Source: a virus. Taken from it: 21,224 nt of DNA. The notes under the pieces are model-generated. The model was given only the letters and a program-made list of their open reading frames with translations, was not told the origin of the DNA and ran no database searches. Shown piece after piece: positions 14,342 through 21,062 of this stretch. Position numbers and translations under genes: made by a program. Every line of letters begins with the position of its first letter. Position 1 is the first letter of the stretch. The stretch is from the IMG/VR virus record IMGVR_UViG_3300008264_000564, positions 1 through 21,224 of that record. One strand, 5' to 3'.

Positions 14342-15178
14342 ATGACACCGACTGACAGCCAAAGACTTCTCGCAGCCGCTGGATACTACTCTGGTGGAAT
14401 TGATAATGATTGGGGTCCGAAGTCCCAAATAGCGGCGAACAAGCTGCTTGAATCACGAGCGAGTGAACTTCCAGTTGGCTGGCAACGGTGGGGAGTTGAG
14501 CGTCGTCGAATCGCTGCCTGTCAGTTGATTTTGAAACACGCTGGCTACGATGAAGTTGGTGAGATCGATGGTTTTGCCGGACCTTCAACGAAATATGCGA
14601 TTGAGAATTGGAACCACTTCCAATTATACGGAAAGAAGCCTGATAATTGGCGTGAAGATGATGTCGTTCAAGAGGATGACGATCAGGAGCCGCTGCGACT
14701 TCAGACTTGGCCTCTTCAATCACAGATGACCAAGTTCTTTGGTCAGCCCGGAGGTTCCCAATGCACGGCTGGAAAGATCCAGCTTCCTTTCAAGATGAGG
14801 ATCGCGTGGAACAAGAAACAAACGATCTCTGTCATCTCTTGCCATGAGAAGGTCGCTGATAGCGCCGAGCGTGTCTACAAGAAAATTGCCTCGCAGTATT
14901 CTCCGAAAGACATCTCTCGCTTGGGCTTTGACCTCTTTGGTGGATGCTACAATTATCGCAAGATGCGAGGAGGCTCTAGTCTTTCGACTCATGCCTACGG
15001 TATCGCAATAGATCATGATCCTGATCGTAATCAGCTCAAGTGGGGTCGTGATCGCGCTTTCCTCGCCAAGAACGAATGTGTCGAATTTTGGCGAGCCTGG
15101 GAATCCGAGGGGTGGCTGTCCCTCGGTCGTGCAAAAAACTATGATTGGATGCACGTCCAAGCAGCCAGAGTGAATTAA
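14342..15178 (+). CDS. Endolysin: peptidoglycan-binding domain plus M15 peptidase
   Basis: A 278-residue lysin. Residues about 5-95 hold two peptidoglycan-binding-like helical repeats (LLAAAGYYSGGIDNDWGPKS and LILKHAGYDEVGEIDGFAGP). Residues about 125-275 are an M15/VanY-type metallopeptidase domain with S-x-H-x2-G-x-A-x-D at 215-224 (STHAYGIAID) and WMHVQ at 269-273. His217, Asp224 and His271 are the expected zinc ligands. An acidic linker (about 104-117) joins the two parts. Members cut L-Ala-D-Glu or D-Ala bonds in peptidoglycan stem peptides; the exact bond is not predictable here. There is no signal peptide, so it should depend on a holin. AAGGAG (14329-14334) precedes ATG 14342. Confidence 0.88.
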   Translation: MTPTDSQRLLAAAGYYSGGIDNDWGPKSQIAANKLLESRASELPVGWQRWGVERRRIAACQLILKHAGYDEVGEIDGFAGPSTKYAIENWNHFQLYGKKPDNWREDDVVQEDDDQEPLRLQTWPLQSQMTKFFGQPGGSQCTAGKIQLPFKMRIAWNKKQTISVISCHEKVADSAERVYKKIASQYSPKDISRLGFDLFGGCYNYRKMRGGSSLSTHAYGIAIDHDPDRNQLKWGRDRAFLAKNECVEFWRAWESEGWLSLGRAKNYDWMHVQAARVN

Positions 15179-15452: not shown

Positions 15453-15677
15453 ATGACGTGGCTCTCGCTTCTTATCAATCTGTTGAAATTGGCAACGGGT
15501 CTGTTCAATTATATTGAGCGGAATCAGCTGATGTCAGCAGGAGAGGCGAGAGCTCTCGCCGCACAACTGGAGGAACTCAATGGTCGAGTCAAGAAATCCC
15601 TTGAAGCTCGCGAGTCTGTTGCTCGTGACGCTGCTGCTGGTAGGCTGCGAGACGACGATGGGTATCGGCAAGATTAA
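15453..15677 (+). CDS. Putative inner-membrane spanin (Rz-like)
   Basis: A 74-residue protein with a hydrophobic N-terminal segment (about residues 2-18, WLSLLINLLKLATGLFN) and a charged helical remainder (about 27-62) of coiled-coil character rich in Ala, Glu and Arg. That is the i-spanin plan: one N-terminal TM anchor and a periplasmic helix. AAGGAG (15440-15445) overlaps the previous stop. It is short for an i-spanin, and the hydrophobic segment is only marginal as a TM helix. The best support is the nested lipoprotein gene beginning inside it in the +1 frame, as in lambda Rz/Rz1. Confidence 0.65.
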   Translation: MTWLSLLINLLKLATGLFNYIERNQLMSAGEARALAAQLEELNGRVKKSLEARESVARDAAAGRLRDDDGYRQD

Positions 15678-15813
15678 CACTGGAGTTGCTAATCAACTTC
15701 AGGTTTGTCAGGCTTGGCAACCAATCCGTTGGAAGTCGTCCTGGCCTGATGAAGCTATTCTTCAGGCGAAACAGAACAACGCTGCGAGATTGGCGTGGGG
15801 TTGTCCACGGTGA
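15580..15813 (+). CDS. Putative outer-membrane spanin lipoprotein (Rz1-like)
   Basis: A 77-residue lipoprotein. Residues 1-22 form a signal peptide with basic residues followed by LASLLLVTLLLVG, and Cys23 completes a good lipobox (LVGC). The mature part contains VCQAWQPIRWKSS and ends with QAKQNNAARLAWGC, a layout I associate with small o-spanin-like proteins of phages. ATG 15580 lies inside the putative i-spanin gene in another frame, overlapping it by 98 bases, with an internal GGAGGA (15569-15574) five bases upstream. This nested arrangement is characteristic of two-component spanins, which fuse inner and outer membranes in the last step of Gram-negative lysis. Confidence 0.75.
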   Translation: MVESRNPLKLASLLLVTLLLVGCETTMGIGKINTGVANQLQVCQAWQPIRWKSSWPDEAILQAKQNNAARLAWGCPR

Positions 15814-15816
15814 AAC

Positions 15817-16090
15817 TAAGTAGAGGCAGGTAGAGGCAGAGAAAGTCAGCTAAGTGTTTGGAATTACTTCATAAACATTCTGCCGACTCCACTTGCTTTA
15901 CTGGCTCCACATGCTGGCAAACCACAGGCTGCACGGCCCAAGGTGGTCAGCGGCCCTCTGAGGCTCCACTTTTATTTTAGTGGAGTAAGTAGAGTAAGTA
16001 AAGTCAACAGGGCTTAAACCCTTGTAAACATTGGAATTCCTCTGACTCCACTTAGATCTTTCACCTGAAGCTAAGTAAAGTCAAGTGGGG
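15817..16090 (+). repeat. Iteron-like array of a 9-bp motif (CTYYACTTR) in both orientations
   Basis: The 351-base gene-free stretch 15814-16164 is dominated by a 9-mer. Forward-type copies: CTCCACTTG 15887, CTTTACTGG 15896, CTCCACATG 15905 (three in tandem), CTCCACTTT 15964, CTCCACTTA 16046. Reverse-type copies: TAAGTAGAG 15817, TTAGTGGAG 15977, TAAGTAGAG 15986, TAAGTAAAG 15995 (three in tandem), TAAGTAAAG 16072, CAAGTGGGG 16082. A tandem 10-mer TAGAGGCAGR (15821-15840) and repeats of AAACATT (15873, 16026) and TTGGAATT (15858, 16031) are also present. Such arrays bind replication initiators or repressors. It lies between the lysis cassette and the helicase block. No coding signal is seen here. 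Confidence 0.75.
15964..15985. repeat. Perfect 7-bp hairpin inside the iteron-like array
   Basis: CTCCACT (15964-15970) and AGTGGAG (15979-15985) are perfect inverted copies around an 8-base T-rich loop. The two arms are themselves a forward and a reverse copy of the 9-mer motif. It could be a dimer binding site, a cruciform, or in RNA a weak hairpin. No T-run follows the right arm, so it is a poor terminator on the + strand. Confidence 0.6.
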
Positions 16091-16112: not shown

Positions 16113-16141
16113 TTGCTCTGCTACCCTCTTTGGGCTATGAT
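16113..16141 (+). promoter_or_regulatory. Candidate sigma70-type promoter for the helicase gene
   Basis: TTGCTC (16113-16118) and TATGAT (16136-16141) are separated by 17 bases. The -10 matches consensus at five of six positions; the -35 matches only at TTG. A start near 16148 would give a very short leader before AAAAGGAG (16151-16158) and ATG 16165. The position just after the motif array suggests that array-binding proteins could control it. Confidence 0.4.
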
Positions 16142-16164: not shown

Positions 16165-17640
16165 ATGATATCCCTAGAAGAATACCCGCATACAATTCAG
16201 CCGTTTCAGCATCAGAAGAACCACCTCGAAAAGAGAGTTCGATCCACATCATGGGGTCTATTCTGGGAGCAGGGAACCGCAAAGACGAAACCTATCGTCG
16301 ACACAGCTTCATTCTTATATTTGAATGGCGAGATAGATGGACTTCTTGTCGTCGCTCCTCCAGGAGTTGAGCGAAATTGGAACACCGACGAGATTCCAAA
16401 ACACATGCCTCCAGACGTTGCGCTGGACACAATGGTCCAAGTTTTCTTGACTGCAAAGAAAGACACCAAAGATCACGCTCGAGCGATGGAGATGCTGATG
16501 AAGCATCGAGGTCTCGCTGTCATGCTGATTTCTTACAATGCGTTCATGACACAGAAAGGTAAGGACACAGTCTGGAAGTTTCTTCGTCGTCGCCGTTGTC
16601 TCTACGTTCTGGATGAAGCTCACAACATCAAATCTCCTGGTGCTAAACGAACGAAGTCAATCATCGCCAGCGGGAAGTATGCTTCACATCGTCGCATCCT
16701 CACAGGAACTCCAATCGCAGTCGGACCGTTTGACGTTTACTCACAAGTGAAGTTCCTTGATGAGAACTTCTGGAAACGGAAAGGAATCGGTGGGGCAGTT
16801 GAGTTCCGTCAGTTCTTTGGTGAGTGGTTTACTGCTGAACAGTGTAAACGTGAGCTCGGTTACGATCCTGGATACGACAAACTGCTCGGTTACAAGAATA
16901 TGGAGTTTCTGGAGCAGTGGCTCAGTGAGATCACAGATCGTGTTCTGAAAGACGATGTCCTCGATCTTCCACCGAAACTCTATACCAAGAAATATGTAGA
17001 AATGACTTCTCAGCAGAAGGCAATCTACAACGAACTCAAAGACGAGTTTCTTTACGATTTCGGCGATGGGAATATCATCGATGGTGAGTTGCCGATCGTC
17101 CGGTTGTTACGTCTCCAACAAATCCTCTGCAACTATGTTCCGACTGGCGAGGATGAGCCTGTCCGCATCTTGGGCAATCAGAACCCTCGCCTTGAAGCGA
17201 TGGAAGAGATTCGTGATGAAACCTTCCATCCTGGAATTGTATGGGCAAGATTCCGTCATGACGTTGATCAGATCATGGACCTCTTGGGCGATAAGGCTGT
17301 TCGCTATGATGGTATGGTCGATGATGATCAAGCAGAACGAAATAAATTGGCTTTCCAAGCTGGAGACGTTCAGTGGTTCGTCGGCACAGCCCAAAAGGGA
17401 GGTCCTGGTCTGACTCTTCATCAGGCTAAGACAATGGTCTACTACTCGAATAGCTTCCGACTAATTGACCGTCTACAATCAGAAGACAGAGCTCATCGCG
17501 CTGGCATGGATGAGAACCCTGTTCTATATATCGACATTGTTTGCCCAGGAACAGTTGATGAACGAATTGTTGATAATCTTCGCAACAAACGTGACATCGC
17601 CAGCACAATCCTCGGTGACGAACTGAAGGAGTGGATATGA
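16165..17640 (+). CDS. SNF2-type DEAD/DEAH-box helicase
   Basis: A 491-residue SF2 ATPase of the compact SNF2-like type common in phage replication blocks. Motif I is EQGTAKT (residues 35-41), motif II DEAH (150-153), motif III LTGTP (179-183), motif V near GGPGLTLHQAKTMVYYSNSF, and motif VI near QSEDRAHRAGM (about 438-448). Both RecA-like lobes are therefore complete. Motif I has Ala where Gly is usual (GTGKT), the one odd residue. Phage enzymes of this kind are thought to remodel DNA in replication or recombination; the exact role is not shown by the sequence. ATG 16165 follows AAAAGGAG. The gene overlaps the next by ATGA. Confidence 0.9.
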   Translation: MISLEEYPHTIQPFQHQKNHLEKRVRSTSWGLFWEQGTAKTKPIVDTASFLYLNGEIDGLLVVAPPGVERNWNTDEIPKHMPPDVALDTMVQVFLTAKKDTKDHARAMEMLMKHRGLAVMLISYNAFMTQKGKDTVWKFLRRRRCLYVLDEAHNIKSPGAKRTKSIIASGKYASHRRILTGTPIAVGPFDVYSQVKFLDENFWKRKGIGGAVEFRQFFGEWFTAEQCKRELGYDPGYDKLLGYKNMEFLEQWLSEITDRVLKDDVLDLPPKLYTKKYVEMTSQQKAIYNELKDEFLYDFGDGNIIDGELPIVRLLRLQQILCNYVPTGEDEPVRILGNQNPRLEAMEEIRDETFHPGIVWARFRHDVDQIMDLLGDKAVRYDGMVDDDQAERNKLAFQAGDVQWFVGTAQKGGPGLTLHQAKTMVYYSNSFRLIDRLQSEDRAHRAGMDENPVLYIDIVCPGTVDERIVDNLRNKRDIASTILGDELKEWI

Positions 17641-17975
17641 CGGTATTCGTTGTCCAAAAACAAATGAGATTTGACGAGGCAACAGGAGAGCTTGTTCCTC
17701 GTTTCAAAACGCTGGAGAAAGCTGCACGATTCGGACAGATTGAATATCTTCTAAGTCCGAGTGCTCATCCTTTTAATCCAGAACACATCATTGGTGATCT
17801 GCATGAAAAGCTGAAGAGCTACACTGAGAAGGACTATCTACTCCTAATCGGTAATCCTGCTCTAATAGGTATGGCAACGGCTGTCGCTGGTCACTATAAT
17901 GGTGGAGTTCTGAAACTACTACAGTGGTCTGGCCGTCAAGGAGACTACGCCGAAATTTCTGTGCGAATGTTTTGA
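17637..17975 (+). CDS. Conserved phage protein of unknown function
   Basis: A 112-residue protein beginning at ATG 17637, which overlaps the helicase stop (ATGA) and has AAGGAG just upstream; GTG 17631 in frame is too close to that site to be preferred. Conserved-looking stretches are VVQKQMRFDEATGELVPRF, GQIEYLLSPSAHPFNP, and DYLLLIGNPALIGMATAVA followed by YNGG...LLQWSG. I recall similar proteins next to phage helicases, always without assigned function. No TM segment, zinc site or catalytic motif is evident. The tight coupling to the helicase suggests a partner or a shared pathway, which is inference. Confidence 0.7.
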   Translation: MTVFVVQKQMRFDEATGELVPRFKTLEKAARFGQIEYLLSPSAHPFNPEHIIGDLHEKLKSYTEKDYLLLIGNPALIGMATAVAGHYNGGVLKLLQWSGRQGDYAEISVRMF

Positions 17976-18057: not shown

Positions 18058-18624
18058 ATGAGCGAAGACATACACGATTATTCTGCGTTCAAGCAGGAAC
18101 CCGATCAGGTTGGTGGAAACTTGATGTCAGCTCTGGTCAGCCTCGCTGACCAACAGGAAGCTGCACAGGCCGAAGTTGAGCGTTTGGAACTGCTCCTTGA
18201 TGAGGCCAAGAAGAATCACGATCGCATCAGTCAGATCGAAATCCCCAAATTGATGGACGGTATTGACGGAAAGCTCAATCTTCCCGATGGACGAGTCGTC
18301 ACTATTTCTGAAAAGATTCGTTCCAGCATCTCCAGTGACAAGAAACCACTGGCCTTCAAATGGCTTGATGAAAATGATCACGGCGGCTTGATCAAGCGGC
18401 GCTTCATCATCGAGTTTGGTCGTGACCAAGAAGAATGGGCGAAGAAGTTCGAGGCTCAGCTCGCGAAGAGCAAAGAGCCACTCAACGTGAAACAAGAGCA
18501 GAACGTTCACTGGCAGACGTTGGACGCTTTCGTCCGACAACAGCTTGAGAACGGCGACGAGCTTCCTCTTGAACTGTTCGGCGTCTTCCGCCAGCGGTTC
18601 GCGAAGATCAAGTCGGCTCAATAA
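18058..18624 (+). CDS. Conserved phage protein with N-terminal coiled coil, unknown function
   Basis: A 188-residue, soluble, charged protein. Residues about 25-62 predict a coiled coil (ALVSLADQQEAAQAEVERLE onward), followed by EIPKLMDGIDGKLNLPDGR, a small beta region, then FKWLDENDHGGLIKRRFIIEFG, and a C-terminal block with the pattern VHWQTLDAFVRQQLENGDELPLELFGVF. I recall proteins with this same layout in many lytic phages next to DNA replication genes and without an assigned role. GGAG (18044-18047) lies before ATG 18058. It shares a probable transcript with the SSB-like gene that follows, which hints at a DNA metabolism function. Confidence 0.75.
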   Translation: MSEDIHDYSAFKQEPDQVGGNLMSALVSLADQQEAAQAEVERLELLLDEAKKNHDRISQIEIPKLMDGIDGKLNLPDGRVVTISEKIRSSISSDKKPLAFKWLDENDHGGLIKRRFIIEFGRDQEEWAKKFEAQLAKSKEPLNVKQEQNVHWQTLDAFVRQQLENGDELPLELFGVFRQRFAKIKSAQ

Positions 18625-18702: not shown

Positions 18703-19545
18703 ATGGCTGGCAAAGAAGTAGCAAAACAGGAAACGGGCGGCGCTGTCGCAGCCTACAATTACGGTGATCACGCTGGCGTCGGTTTTGAAGGCACGAAGGG
18801 TTCCGATCTTTCAATTCCCTTCATCAACCTTCTTCAGTCCAACTCGCCGGAAGTCGAGGAAGAACTTGTCGCTGGTGCAAAAACTGGTGACATGTTGAAC
18901 ACGGTCACAGGCGAGCTCATCAAGGGTGACACTGGCTTCGTGTTCTTACCAGTCCACAAGGAAGAAGCGTGGGTTGAGTGGGTTCCTCGTGTGAAGGGTG
19001 GTGGCTTCGTTGGGATGCACGATCCCAATGGTGAATTGGTCACTGACCTGATCAAGGCGAATGGTGGCTCTCGGATTCCTCCGAAGGGGTCAGATGGCAA
19101 GCGCATTTCGTTCAAGCACGGCGACAACGAGGTCATCGAGACCTACTACGTCTACGGGCTTCTCCTGAATCAGGAAGGCACTGAAGTCGAGTCCTTCGCT
19201 GTCATTTCGTTCAGCTCGACCAAGATCAAGCCGTATCGCGACTGGCTCACCTCGATGTATCTCATCAAGGGAAAGCCGCCGATGTTCGCTAACCGTGCTC
19301 GACTCAAGTCCGTCAAGCAGAAGAACGAATCCGGCACTTATGCCAACTTCTCGATCGGACCTCTCAAGGAAACGTGGGCGAAGTCGCTCATTGATCCTTC
19401 CGGTGAGAAGGCACTGCTTGATGAAGCCATCTCGTTCCGCGAAATGGTCCTCAACGGTGTTGCTCGTGCCGACTTCAATCACCAACAGAATGCCGCCGCT
19501 GGTGGCGACGGTGGTGGTGGTGAAGGGGAAAAGGCTCCGTTCTGA
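18703..19545 (+). CDS. Putative single-stranded DNA-binding protein
   Basis: A 280-residue soluble protein with AAAGGAG (18689-18695) before ATG 18703. The body contains conserved-looking segments such as SDLSIPFINLLQSNSPEVEE, GFVFLPVHKEEAWVEWVPR and FAVISFSSTKIKPYRDWLTS with KGKPPMFANRARL. The end is a low-complexity, Gly-rich acidic tail closing with GEGEKAPF. A flexible acidic tail with a terminal aromatic residue is how bacterial SSB (ending IPF) and T7 gp2.5 recruit partners. With helicases on both sides, an ssDNA-binding or annealing role is the best guess. I do not see a clear OB-fold signature, so this is inference. Confidence 0.6.
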   Translation: MAGKEVAKQETGGAVAAYNYGDHAGVGFEGTKGSDLSIPFINLLQSNSPEVEEELVAGAKTGDMLNTVTGELIKGDTGFVFLPVHKEEAWVEWVPRVKGGGFVGMHDPNGELVTDLIKANGGSRIPPKGSDGKRISFKHGDNEVIETYYVYGLLLNQEGTEVESFAVISFSSTKIKPYRDWLTSMYLIKGKPPMFANRARLKSVKQKNESGTYANFSIGPLKETWAKSLIDPSGEKALLDEAISFREMVLNGVARADFNHQQNAAAGGDGGGGEGEKAPF

Positions 19546-19569
19546 CCCTCCTCCCCAGAACGTGAGCCT

Positions 19570-19608
19570 ACGGCCAGAGGGTGAACTCGCCCGCTCCCCT
19601 CTGGCCGT
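19570..19608 (+). terminator. Rho-independent terminator
   Basis: A perfect 12-bp stem: 19570-19581 (ACGGCCAGAGGG) pairs with 19597-19608 (CCCTCTGGCCGT) around a 15-base loop, followed by TTTCTTCCTC. It begins 25 bases after the SSB-like gene's stop. The downstream tract is pyrimidine-rich rather than pure T, so some read-through to the next gene is likely. Confidence 0.8.
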
Positions 19609-19635
19609 TTCTTCCTCATTGGGCAGGAGACGAAC

Positions 19636-19830
19636 ATGCAACAAGATCAAACTCAAGATATCATGTCTGGCTTGATGGAACTCGGTCAGTTCAACACACT
19701 CAAGCAGATGGCTCGTGGACAGAAATCAAGAAAAGGAACTGCTGATCGTCATGTGATCCGTCGTTTCGTCAAAGATGGTCGAGAGTATTACCTTCACGCA
19801 ACTAAAGGCTGGAGGACTCGTCGGGTATGA
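19636..19830 (+). CDS. Small basic protein of unknown function
   Basis: A 64-residue basic protein with AGGAG upstream of ATG 19636 and an ATGA overlap with the following helicase start. Features are a helical N-terminal part (IMSGLMELGQFNTLKQMARG), a Lys/Arg patch (QKSRKGTADRH) and a C-terminal RFVKDGREYYLHATKGWRTR block. Charge and neighbours suggest a nucleic acid-binding or helicase accessory role, but no known domain is recognised. Translational coupling to the helicase is clear from the overlap. Confidence 0.65.
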   Translation: MQQDQTQDIMSGLMELGQFNTLKQMARGQKSRKGTADRHVIRRFVKDGREYYLHATKGWRTRRV

Positions 19831-21062
19831 GATGGTCACCTCAGCAAGATGACGCTCTTTCAGCAGTCCGTGACTGGCTGCTGAACGGCGATGAGCAGGT
19901 GTTCCATTTGTTTGGATACGCCGGAACAGGGAAGACTACTCTCGCAAAACATCTTGCTGAGGGGGTCAACGGAAAGGTTCTTTTCGCAGCCTTCACAGGA
20001 AAGGCAGCTTACGTTCTTCAATCAAAAGGTTGCGCTGGAGCGACCACAATCCATTCACTGATCTATCACTCTCGTGACAAGGGTCAGGCTCAACTTGTTG
20101 AAATGGAAAAACAACTCCAGCAGCTCATAGACGAACTTGTCGCTGAGGGAATGAAAGAAGCTGAGATTGATAAACACATTCGGGTAAAAGACCTGAGGAA
20201 GATGATCAATCATGAAAGGGACTCTGTCAAACAGCCTTTCTTCGTCCTCAATATGGACAGTGAAGTTCGTGGTGCGAAACTAATAATCATAGACGAATGC
20301 TCTATGGTCGATGCTCGTATGGGTGCAGATCTCCTTTCGTTTGGTGTTAAGGTTCTCGTCTTGGGCGACCCTGCTCAGTTACCTCCTGTCGGTGGGGCTG
20401 GCTACTTCACAGAGAACGTTAAGCCAGACATCATGCTGGAAGAGATTCATCGTCAGGCTGAGGAATCTCCAATTATCCGCATGGCAACCCAAGTGAGGAA
20501 AGAGCAGTCTCTCTCCTTGGGCGACTTCGGCAATGATTGCCGAGTGATAGCTGGAGAAAGGATCGAGCCAGACATAGCATTGGCTTTCGATCAAATACTC
20601 GTCGGTAAGAACAAGACACGCTTCGCAACGAACAAGCGTGTCAGAACTCTCAAAGGCATTGATGATCCTTATCCTGTCTTGGATGATCGCATCGTATGTC
20701 TTCGCAATGACCATGATGCTGGCCTCCTCAACGGAGCTCTATTCAGGGTCGTCAGCGTCGGTGGTGTGATGGACCATAAAGTGATGATGGACATCGTCCC
20801 AGAAGGAGGACCTTTCGCTCAAAGTGTCATGGCTCACGAACACTACTTCCTAGGGAAGGGTGATGACTTACCGTGGTTTGAGCGAAAAGAGGCTCAAGAG
20901 TTCGACTACGGATATGCCCTCACAGTTCACAAAGCTCAGGGCAGTCAGTGGGATAGTGTTCTCTTGTTTGATGAATCTCATTCTTTCAGAAAGGATCGTT
21001 GGCGATGGCTCTACACGGGGATAACGAGGGCAGCGGAAAAGCTGACCGTAGTGCGAATGTAA
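19827..21062 (+). CDS. SF1B helicase, Dda/RecD2-like
   Basis: A 411-residue 5'-3' type helicase. Walker A is GYAGTGKT (residues 30-37), motif Ia AFTGKAA (55-61), Walker B IIIDECSMV (153-161, Asp156-Glu157), motif III GDPAQLPPVG (180-189), and the C-terminal UvrD_C_2-type region has ALTVHKAQGSQWDSVLLFDE (about 364-383) and WLYTGITRAAEKL near the end. Phage members such as T4 Dda help start replication and clear proteins from DNA. Between motifs Ia and II, residues about 83-135 form a charged, coiled-coil-like insertion (LVEMEKQLQQLIDELVAEGM) that I do not associate with Dda. The start ATG 19827 overlaps the upstream stop (ATGA). Confidence 0.9.
   Translation: MRWSPQQDDALSAVRDWLLNGDEQVFHLFGYAGTGKTTLAKHLAEGVNGKVLFAAFTGKAAYVLQSKGCAGATTIHSLIYHSRDKGQAQLVEMEKQLQQLIDELVAEGMKEAEIDKHIRVKDLRKMINHERDSVKQPFFVLNMDSEVRGAKLIIIDECSMVDARMGADLLSFGVKVLVLGDPAQLPPVGGAGYFTENVKPDIMLEEIHRQAEESPIIRMATQVRKEQSLSLGDFGNDCRVIAGERIEPDIALAFDQILVGKNKTRFATNKRVRTLKGIDDPYPVLDDRIVCLRNDHDAGLLNGALFRVVSVGGVMDHKVMMDIVPEGGPFAQSVMAHEHYFLGKGDDLPWFERKEAQEFDYGYALTVHKAQGSQWDSVLLFDESHSFRKDRWRWLYTGITRAAEKLTVVRM

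Follow-up and report, generated by a model that had tools for sequence, protein, structure and literature searches.

Gene neighborhood of the array

The window, the whole 21,224-base stretch of DNA that was analyzed, represents part of the genome of a relative of Pseudomonas phages YuA and M6 (Mesyanzhinovviridae); a near-identity search of phage records returned no match to it. The tail and lysis genes, with an endolysin at 14342–15178, lie upstream of an array of 9-bp repeats that sits between the lysis genes and the gene of an SNF2-type helicase. As noted in a preliminary description of this DNA, the array occupies the only long gene-free stretch of the window. The gene order around it matches that of Pseudomonas phage M6 and of other Mesyanzhinovviridae, and the features that follow it are:

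16113–16141, + strand: sigma-70-like promoter of the helicase operon, TTGCTC-17-TATGAT
16165–17640, + strand: SNF2-type DNA helicase (phrog_62), the first gene past the array
17631–17975, + strand: Pam3 gp32-like protein
18058–18624, + strand: Pam3 gp33-like protein
18703–19545, + strand: Pam3 gp34-like protein
19827–21062, + strand: Dda-like helicase

The final copy of the array ends 22 bp before the -35 box of the promoter at 16113. The close relative L003 has such a promoter approximately 52 bases upstream of its helicase start, and similar boxes are found in other relatives. Just before the array are two overlapping small genes (15453–15677 and 15580–15813), the inner one with a lipobox-like LLLVGC. 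From their sequences, the two look like a spanin pair (i-spanin and o-spanin).

Composition of the repeat array

The preliminary description reported roughly eleven copies of CTYYACTTR in either orientation. The dense array is real and far beyond chance, while the count becomes 12 when up to one mismatch is allowed (15817–16090; 0.87 expected in the 296-bp region and at most 4 in any of 1000 dinucleotide shuffles). Exact matches number 8 in the entire window, 6 of which fall within 15817–16080, compared to 1.15 expected for the whole window and a maximum of 3 in 100 shuffles. The self-match of the array region at a lag of 9 is 0.366, a value reached by none of 1000 shuffles (0.251 ± 0.025). 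As a genome-wide detector of arrays, the lag-9 self-match was rejected since it is confounded by codon periodicity. The elements of the array are:

Starts of the 12 copies (F, forward; R, reverse): 15817R, 15827R, 15887F, 15896F, 15905F, 15964F, 15977R, 15986R, 15995R, 16046F, 16072R, 16082R
15817–15835, - strand: left outer pair (15817–15825 and 15827–15835), 10-bp spacing
15887–15913, + strand: forward tandem triplet CTCCACTTG CTTTACTGG CTCCACATG, period 9
15914–15963, no strand: GC-rich, weakly conserved segment between the array halves
15964–15972, + strand: forward copy, hairpin partner of 15977–15985; hairpin not conserved in relatives
15977–16003, - strand: reverse tandem triplet, reading TTAGTGGAG TAAGTAGAG TAAGTAAAG on the + strand; conserved more strongly than any other part of the array
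16046–16054, + strand: single forward copy CTCCACTTA
16072–16090, - strand: right outer pair (16072–16080 and 16082–16090), 10-bp spacing
15968–16017, no strand: the 50 bp of lowest stability near the array, a candidate DNA unwinding element (z 2.9 in the window)

Along the array, the copies therefore run R R, F F F, F, R R R, F, R R. The two facing head-to-tail triplets lie where they had been placed and keep a period of 9 bp, although half of their six copies have a single mismatch and the outer pairs have a period of 10 bp. Variation among the copies falls mainly at the two pyrimidine positions, in agreement with the preliminary description. The hairpin between a forward and a reverse copy at 15964–15985 is present in the window but absent from L003 and other relatives. 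Since the pairing is not kept, the hairpin is probably incidental.

Conservation among related phages

Relatives were gathered by a protein search with the helicase and, separately, by a blind search with the tandem 9-mer alone. The blind search recovered many of the phages of the helicase search, and in these the array again precedes the helicase gene. Between the window and L003, the offsets of the copies agree within 1 bp across 265 bp. Across seven aligned relatives, identity to the window is 68% in motif columns versus 40% in spacers (2 of 278 shifted masks were as good), and for the reverse triplet at 15977–16003 the identity to relatives is 0.78, 0.93, and 0.94. Phages M6, LKO4, FP1, and Epa5 also have an array with the same synteny and layout. 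According to the preliminary description, its observation would be refuted if the 9-mer were equally frequent elsewhere in the genome or if motif and spacing were not conserved in related phages. Neither is the case, as spacing and layout are conserved, and seven of the nine exact copies in the 64-kb relative G001 fall in one 300-bp stretch.

A systematic survey drew on 80 further loci and covered 60 non-redundant 500-bp regions upstream of the helicase. An array was considered significant if it contained a repeated 9-mer beyond all 40 shuffles, with stretches inside the helicase gene serving as controls. Significant arrays were identified in 28 of the 60 upstream regions and in 1 of the 60 controls. 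About half of the 500-bp regions, mostly those of distant relatives, have no significant array. Some of these negatives arise because HNH genes push the array beyond 500 bp. In L002, L006, and L008, an HNH gene puts approximately 450–500 bp between the array and the helicase start, and the array copies persist. Phage Simon has no significant array at the locus, yet an AT-rich block remains; the gaps of the more distant relative Pan1, inspected by eye, revealed no obvious array. A conserved TCGCTAGG-like box is found beside the array in some relatives only.

The genes inserted between the array and the SNF2 helicase encode HNH_3 endonucleases (L002:4532–4978, L006:4480–4965, L008:4468–5004). 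Their placement looks as if homing genes target this spot.

Duplex stability and strand skew

When 50-bp blocks are ranked by stability across the genome, the one at the array comes lowest or second lowest in G001, G002, G003, G005, G006, and M6, all near-complete at 54–66 kb. In 37 of 60 relatives, the stability minimum of the locus is found no more than 650 bp upstream of the helicase. As in known iteron origins, several short direct repeats of one motif stand in a non-coding region and adjoin an AT-rich segment of low stability. The block has the appearance that an unwinding element would be expected to have, although a high AT content is also possible in promoters and other gaps.

The minima of the cumulative GC skew fall away from the array and lend an origin no support. 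GC skew is a weak origin test here because the genes are mostly one-directional. The T-A skew has an extreme within 3.5 kb of the array in six genomes; it was rejected as origin evidence since its sign is opposite to the usual expectation and it may reflect gene modules. A host-type origin with DnaA boxes was also rejected, as 16 regions contained no exact TTWTNCACA box and only scattered matches with one mismatch.

Switching of the repeat between lineages

When the arrays of different phages are compared, the repeat can be written in a general form, [AC]AGT-NNN-GT with a period of 9, in which NNN is lineage-specific and largely common to the copies within one phage. The central triplets are:

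Window's group: RRA
G062, G070, and G071: ATG
G065 and related phages: GAT/ATA
G068: ATA
M6-like phages: TAA
G073 and G076: CGA, with AGA in the center

The M6 array, for instance, has AAGTTAAGT copies. Most copies of one phage carry its own triplet, and some phages are mixed. A triplet that is common to the copies of one phage is the pattern expected if a single phage-encoded protein reads all of them.

A primase-helicase as the candidate binder

All near-complete relatives encode an 800-aa primase-helicase composed of a RepB-type primase (Pfam RepB_primase) and a DUF5906 (SF3) helicase. It was found in 25 of the 30 records searched, including every record over 31 kb; in M6 it is gp068. The gene lies approximately 18–20 kb from the array, outside the 21-kb fragment, which is why no initiator gene was seen in the window. 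The primase-helicase had been named as a candidate before the two comparisons described below were made.

The first comparison concerns G068, a phage with the switched motif CAGTATAGT. The SNF2 helicases of G068 and G005 share 86% identity, as is usual in the clade, whereas the two primase-helicases share only 66% instead of the clade's 90%. Identity also drops for gp34, an unknown 347-aa protein (phrog_8203; G005 18873–19913), and a DUF1653 protein. Of these, gp34 and the 347-aa protein may be partners that were exchanged together with the primase-helicase.

The second comparison related motif distance to protein divergence across 13 related genomes and the 24 families conserved with G005. 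The primase-helicase was the best of the 24 families at tracking the motif (raw r 0.62). After control for the SNF2 helicase, the partial r was 0.46 with a permutation p of 0.003, a value which would fail a strict correction for 24 families had there been no prior candidate; in addition, the genomes are related to one another. The primase-helicase also ranked first of 24 in four further set-ups: with genome-wide distance as the control, on the central triplet alone, after removal of G068, and after removal of G073 and G076. The gp34 (0.04) and 347-aa (0.17) proteins do not track motif distance.

AlphaFold predictions for the primase-helicase did not reach the quality that a fold search requires. 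The whole protein had a mean pLDDT of 51 with only the C-terminus reaching approximately 70–85, and the C-terminal domain calculated alone had a pLDDT of 56. With modest confidence, the models suggest that the C-terminus has the order of elements of a winged helix. This part correlates with the motif no better than the other domains. A D5_N family search was uninformative for this group. The primase-helicase is a ranked candidate for the protein that reads the 9-mers.

A contig encoding an 88% identical primase-helicase (among L179 and L004/L106) shares metagenome 3300005528 with a contig that is 99% identical to the helicase of the window. The former may derive from a closely related phage, as a further piece of its genome.

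Function of the array

The preliminary description offered two readings of the array, an origin with a new initiator or an operator with multiple sites serving the promoter at 16113. The origin is the better supported of the two given the conserved array, the lowest duplex stability, the concerted change of the motif, and the co-variation with the primase-helicase. An origin with an initiator is favored, but the likely binder is of a known type (RepB-like primase with an SF3/DUF5906 helicase) and not a new one. We consider it probable that the array is an iteron/AT-rich replication origin at which the phage's own primase-helicase binds and melts the DNA. The origin function itself, which we infer from sequence comparisons, is well supported. 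The primase-helicase, with its RepB-like primase, SF3/DUF5906 helicase, and predicted winged-helix C-terminus, would bind the 9-mers on both sides and melt the adjacent block of low stability at approximately 15968–16017. It would then load as an SF3 helicase and prime DNA synthesis. The SNF2 helicase, the Dda-like helicase, and gp32–gp34 encoded beside the array may act with it.

The main rival is an operator without origin function, in which a phage regulator on the 9-mers controls the helicase-operon promoter at 16113–16141. Arrays of this look are possible for multi-site operators, the conserved sigma-70-like promoter directly follows the array at a distance of 22 bp from the last copy to the -35 box, and in M6 a small protein with helix-turn-helix matches adjoins the primase. 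The copies, however, reach approximately 300 bp upstream on both strands with none on the promoter core, and in L002, L006, and L008 they are kept despite the HNH gene between the array and the helicase start. Further points against an operator are that the array block is the genome's place of lowest stability and that the best co-varying protein is the primase-helicase. An operator alone is thus unlikely, and the operator reading stays as a rival or as an additional role. In iteron replicons, it is common for the sites of the initiator to serve both the origin and promoter control. A dual use of this kind, in which the initiator would start replication while repressing or activating the promoter next to the array (autoregulation of the replication operon), is compatible with an origin. 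It fits the adjoining array and promoter in close relatives but not their separation in the phages with an HNH insert, and we regard it as a possibility with somewhat less than an even chance.

Two other readings are far less probable. As RNA, the inverted copies could form a structured leader or a terminator of the lysis operon, and the + strand does fold better than shuffles (z -3.6). Inverted copies fold by construction, though, the pairing at 15964–15985 is broken in relatives, the + strand has no T-tract terminator, and Rfam gave no match, which makes this reading very improbable. Repeat arrays also mark packaging, partition, and recombination sites. The chance that the array is one of these is slighter still: none of the analyses points to such a site, in M6 the terminase genes are approximately 24 kb from the array, and no partition or integrase gene lies beside it.

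If the array is an origin, the conserved gene-free region would be explained. The YuA/M6-related phages are common and much sequenced, and with candidates for both the origin and the initiator, their start of replication becomes directly testable. The array may further represent a naturally diversified pair of initiator and iterons within one phage family, in which the AGT...GT frame and the layout are kept and most copies switch their central triplet together, in step with the divergence or replacement of the primase-helicase. We see the chances of this as evenly balanced. If true, the pair would offer a ready-made set for reading the DNA-recognition code of the initiator, and the lineage-specific triplets provide naturally occurring variants with which site recognition can be studied.

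Comparison with known origins

In satellite P4, a winged-helix domain of the multifunctional primase-helicase alpha binds short origin repeats and the protein then unwinds and primes the DNA (PMC4234260). The phages described here are similar in having short DNA repeats and a proposed primase-helicase as their reader. They differ in that the P4 alpha primase is of the Toprim type instead of RepB-like (AEP), the 9-mers are not the P4 repeats, the genome is that of a 60-kb phage that encodes a PolA-type polymerase of its own, and the binding is proposed from sequence. With a RepB-type primase and a DUF5906 helicase, the protein falls outside the P4 alpha type, which combines a Toprim primase, a helicase, and an origin-binding winged helix.

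The origins of PICI/SaPI elements (pri-rep-ori) have two iteron sets that flank an AT-rich region, together with a primase and an initiator of helicase type, an organization stated to be shared with no other known bacterial replicon (PMC6092414). The array likewise has two iteron sets around an AT-rich region. A PICI origin is directly 3' of its initiator gene; here, the array is upstream of the SNF2 helicase gene and the primase-helicase gene is approximately 18–20 kb away. The polymerase of phage NrS-1 (6k9c/6lrb) is the closest solved relative of the helicase domain (E 3e-14). This primase-polymerase has an 8-nt recognition sequence (PMC7102993, PMC8718748), but this sequence occurs just twice in the NrS-1 genome and no iteron array has been described. 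The oriV of RSF1010 (RepA, RepB, RepC) is an iteron origin with a RepB-type primase (PMC4234260). It shares with the present phages the pairing of such a primase with iterons; in contrast, a separate RepC reads the iterons and the work is split over three polypeptides.

An iteron/AT-rich type of origin is therefore already known from satellites and plasmids, and the reading proposed here would extend the P4/PICI type from satellites to full-size phages. The apparent novelties are the occurrence of this origin type in the phage family, its association with a primase-helicase of the RepB type, and a repeat that switches from lineage to lineage. The literature found, which did not include the original YuA genome paper, describes no origin for YuA/M6-related phages, and no description was found of an iteron origin for the RepB-like primase and SF3 helicase type in phages of this size.

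Arrays in unrelated phages

The blind 9-mer search also matched unrelated phages. In L103, the array is directly 3' of a RepB/DUF5906 primase-helicase gene. A VapE-like helicase lies approximately 0.1 to 1.6 kb from the array in L012, and the array of L093 is near a DnaG-type primase. In the L033 group (L033:663–2903; L015, L027, L043, L048, L079, L090), a tandem AAGTAAAGT array with inverted copies is directly 3' of a Toprim/AAA_25 primase-helicase gene. The arrays of L117, L124, and L068 are near terminase genes instead. The neighborhood of primase and helicase genes supports an origin but, as these cases were examined after the search, is only suggestive.

Two of the arrays near terminase genes (L117:1515–1532 and L124:7118–7135) consist of tandem AAGTAAAGT copies and are accompanied by a second repeat that is TTTTACAACACC-like.
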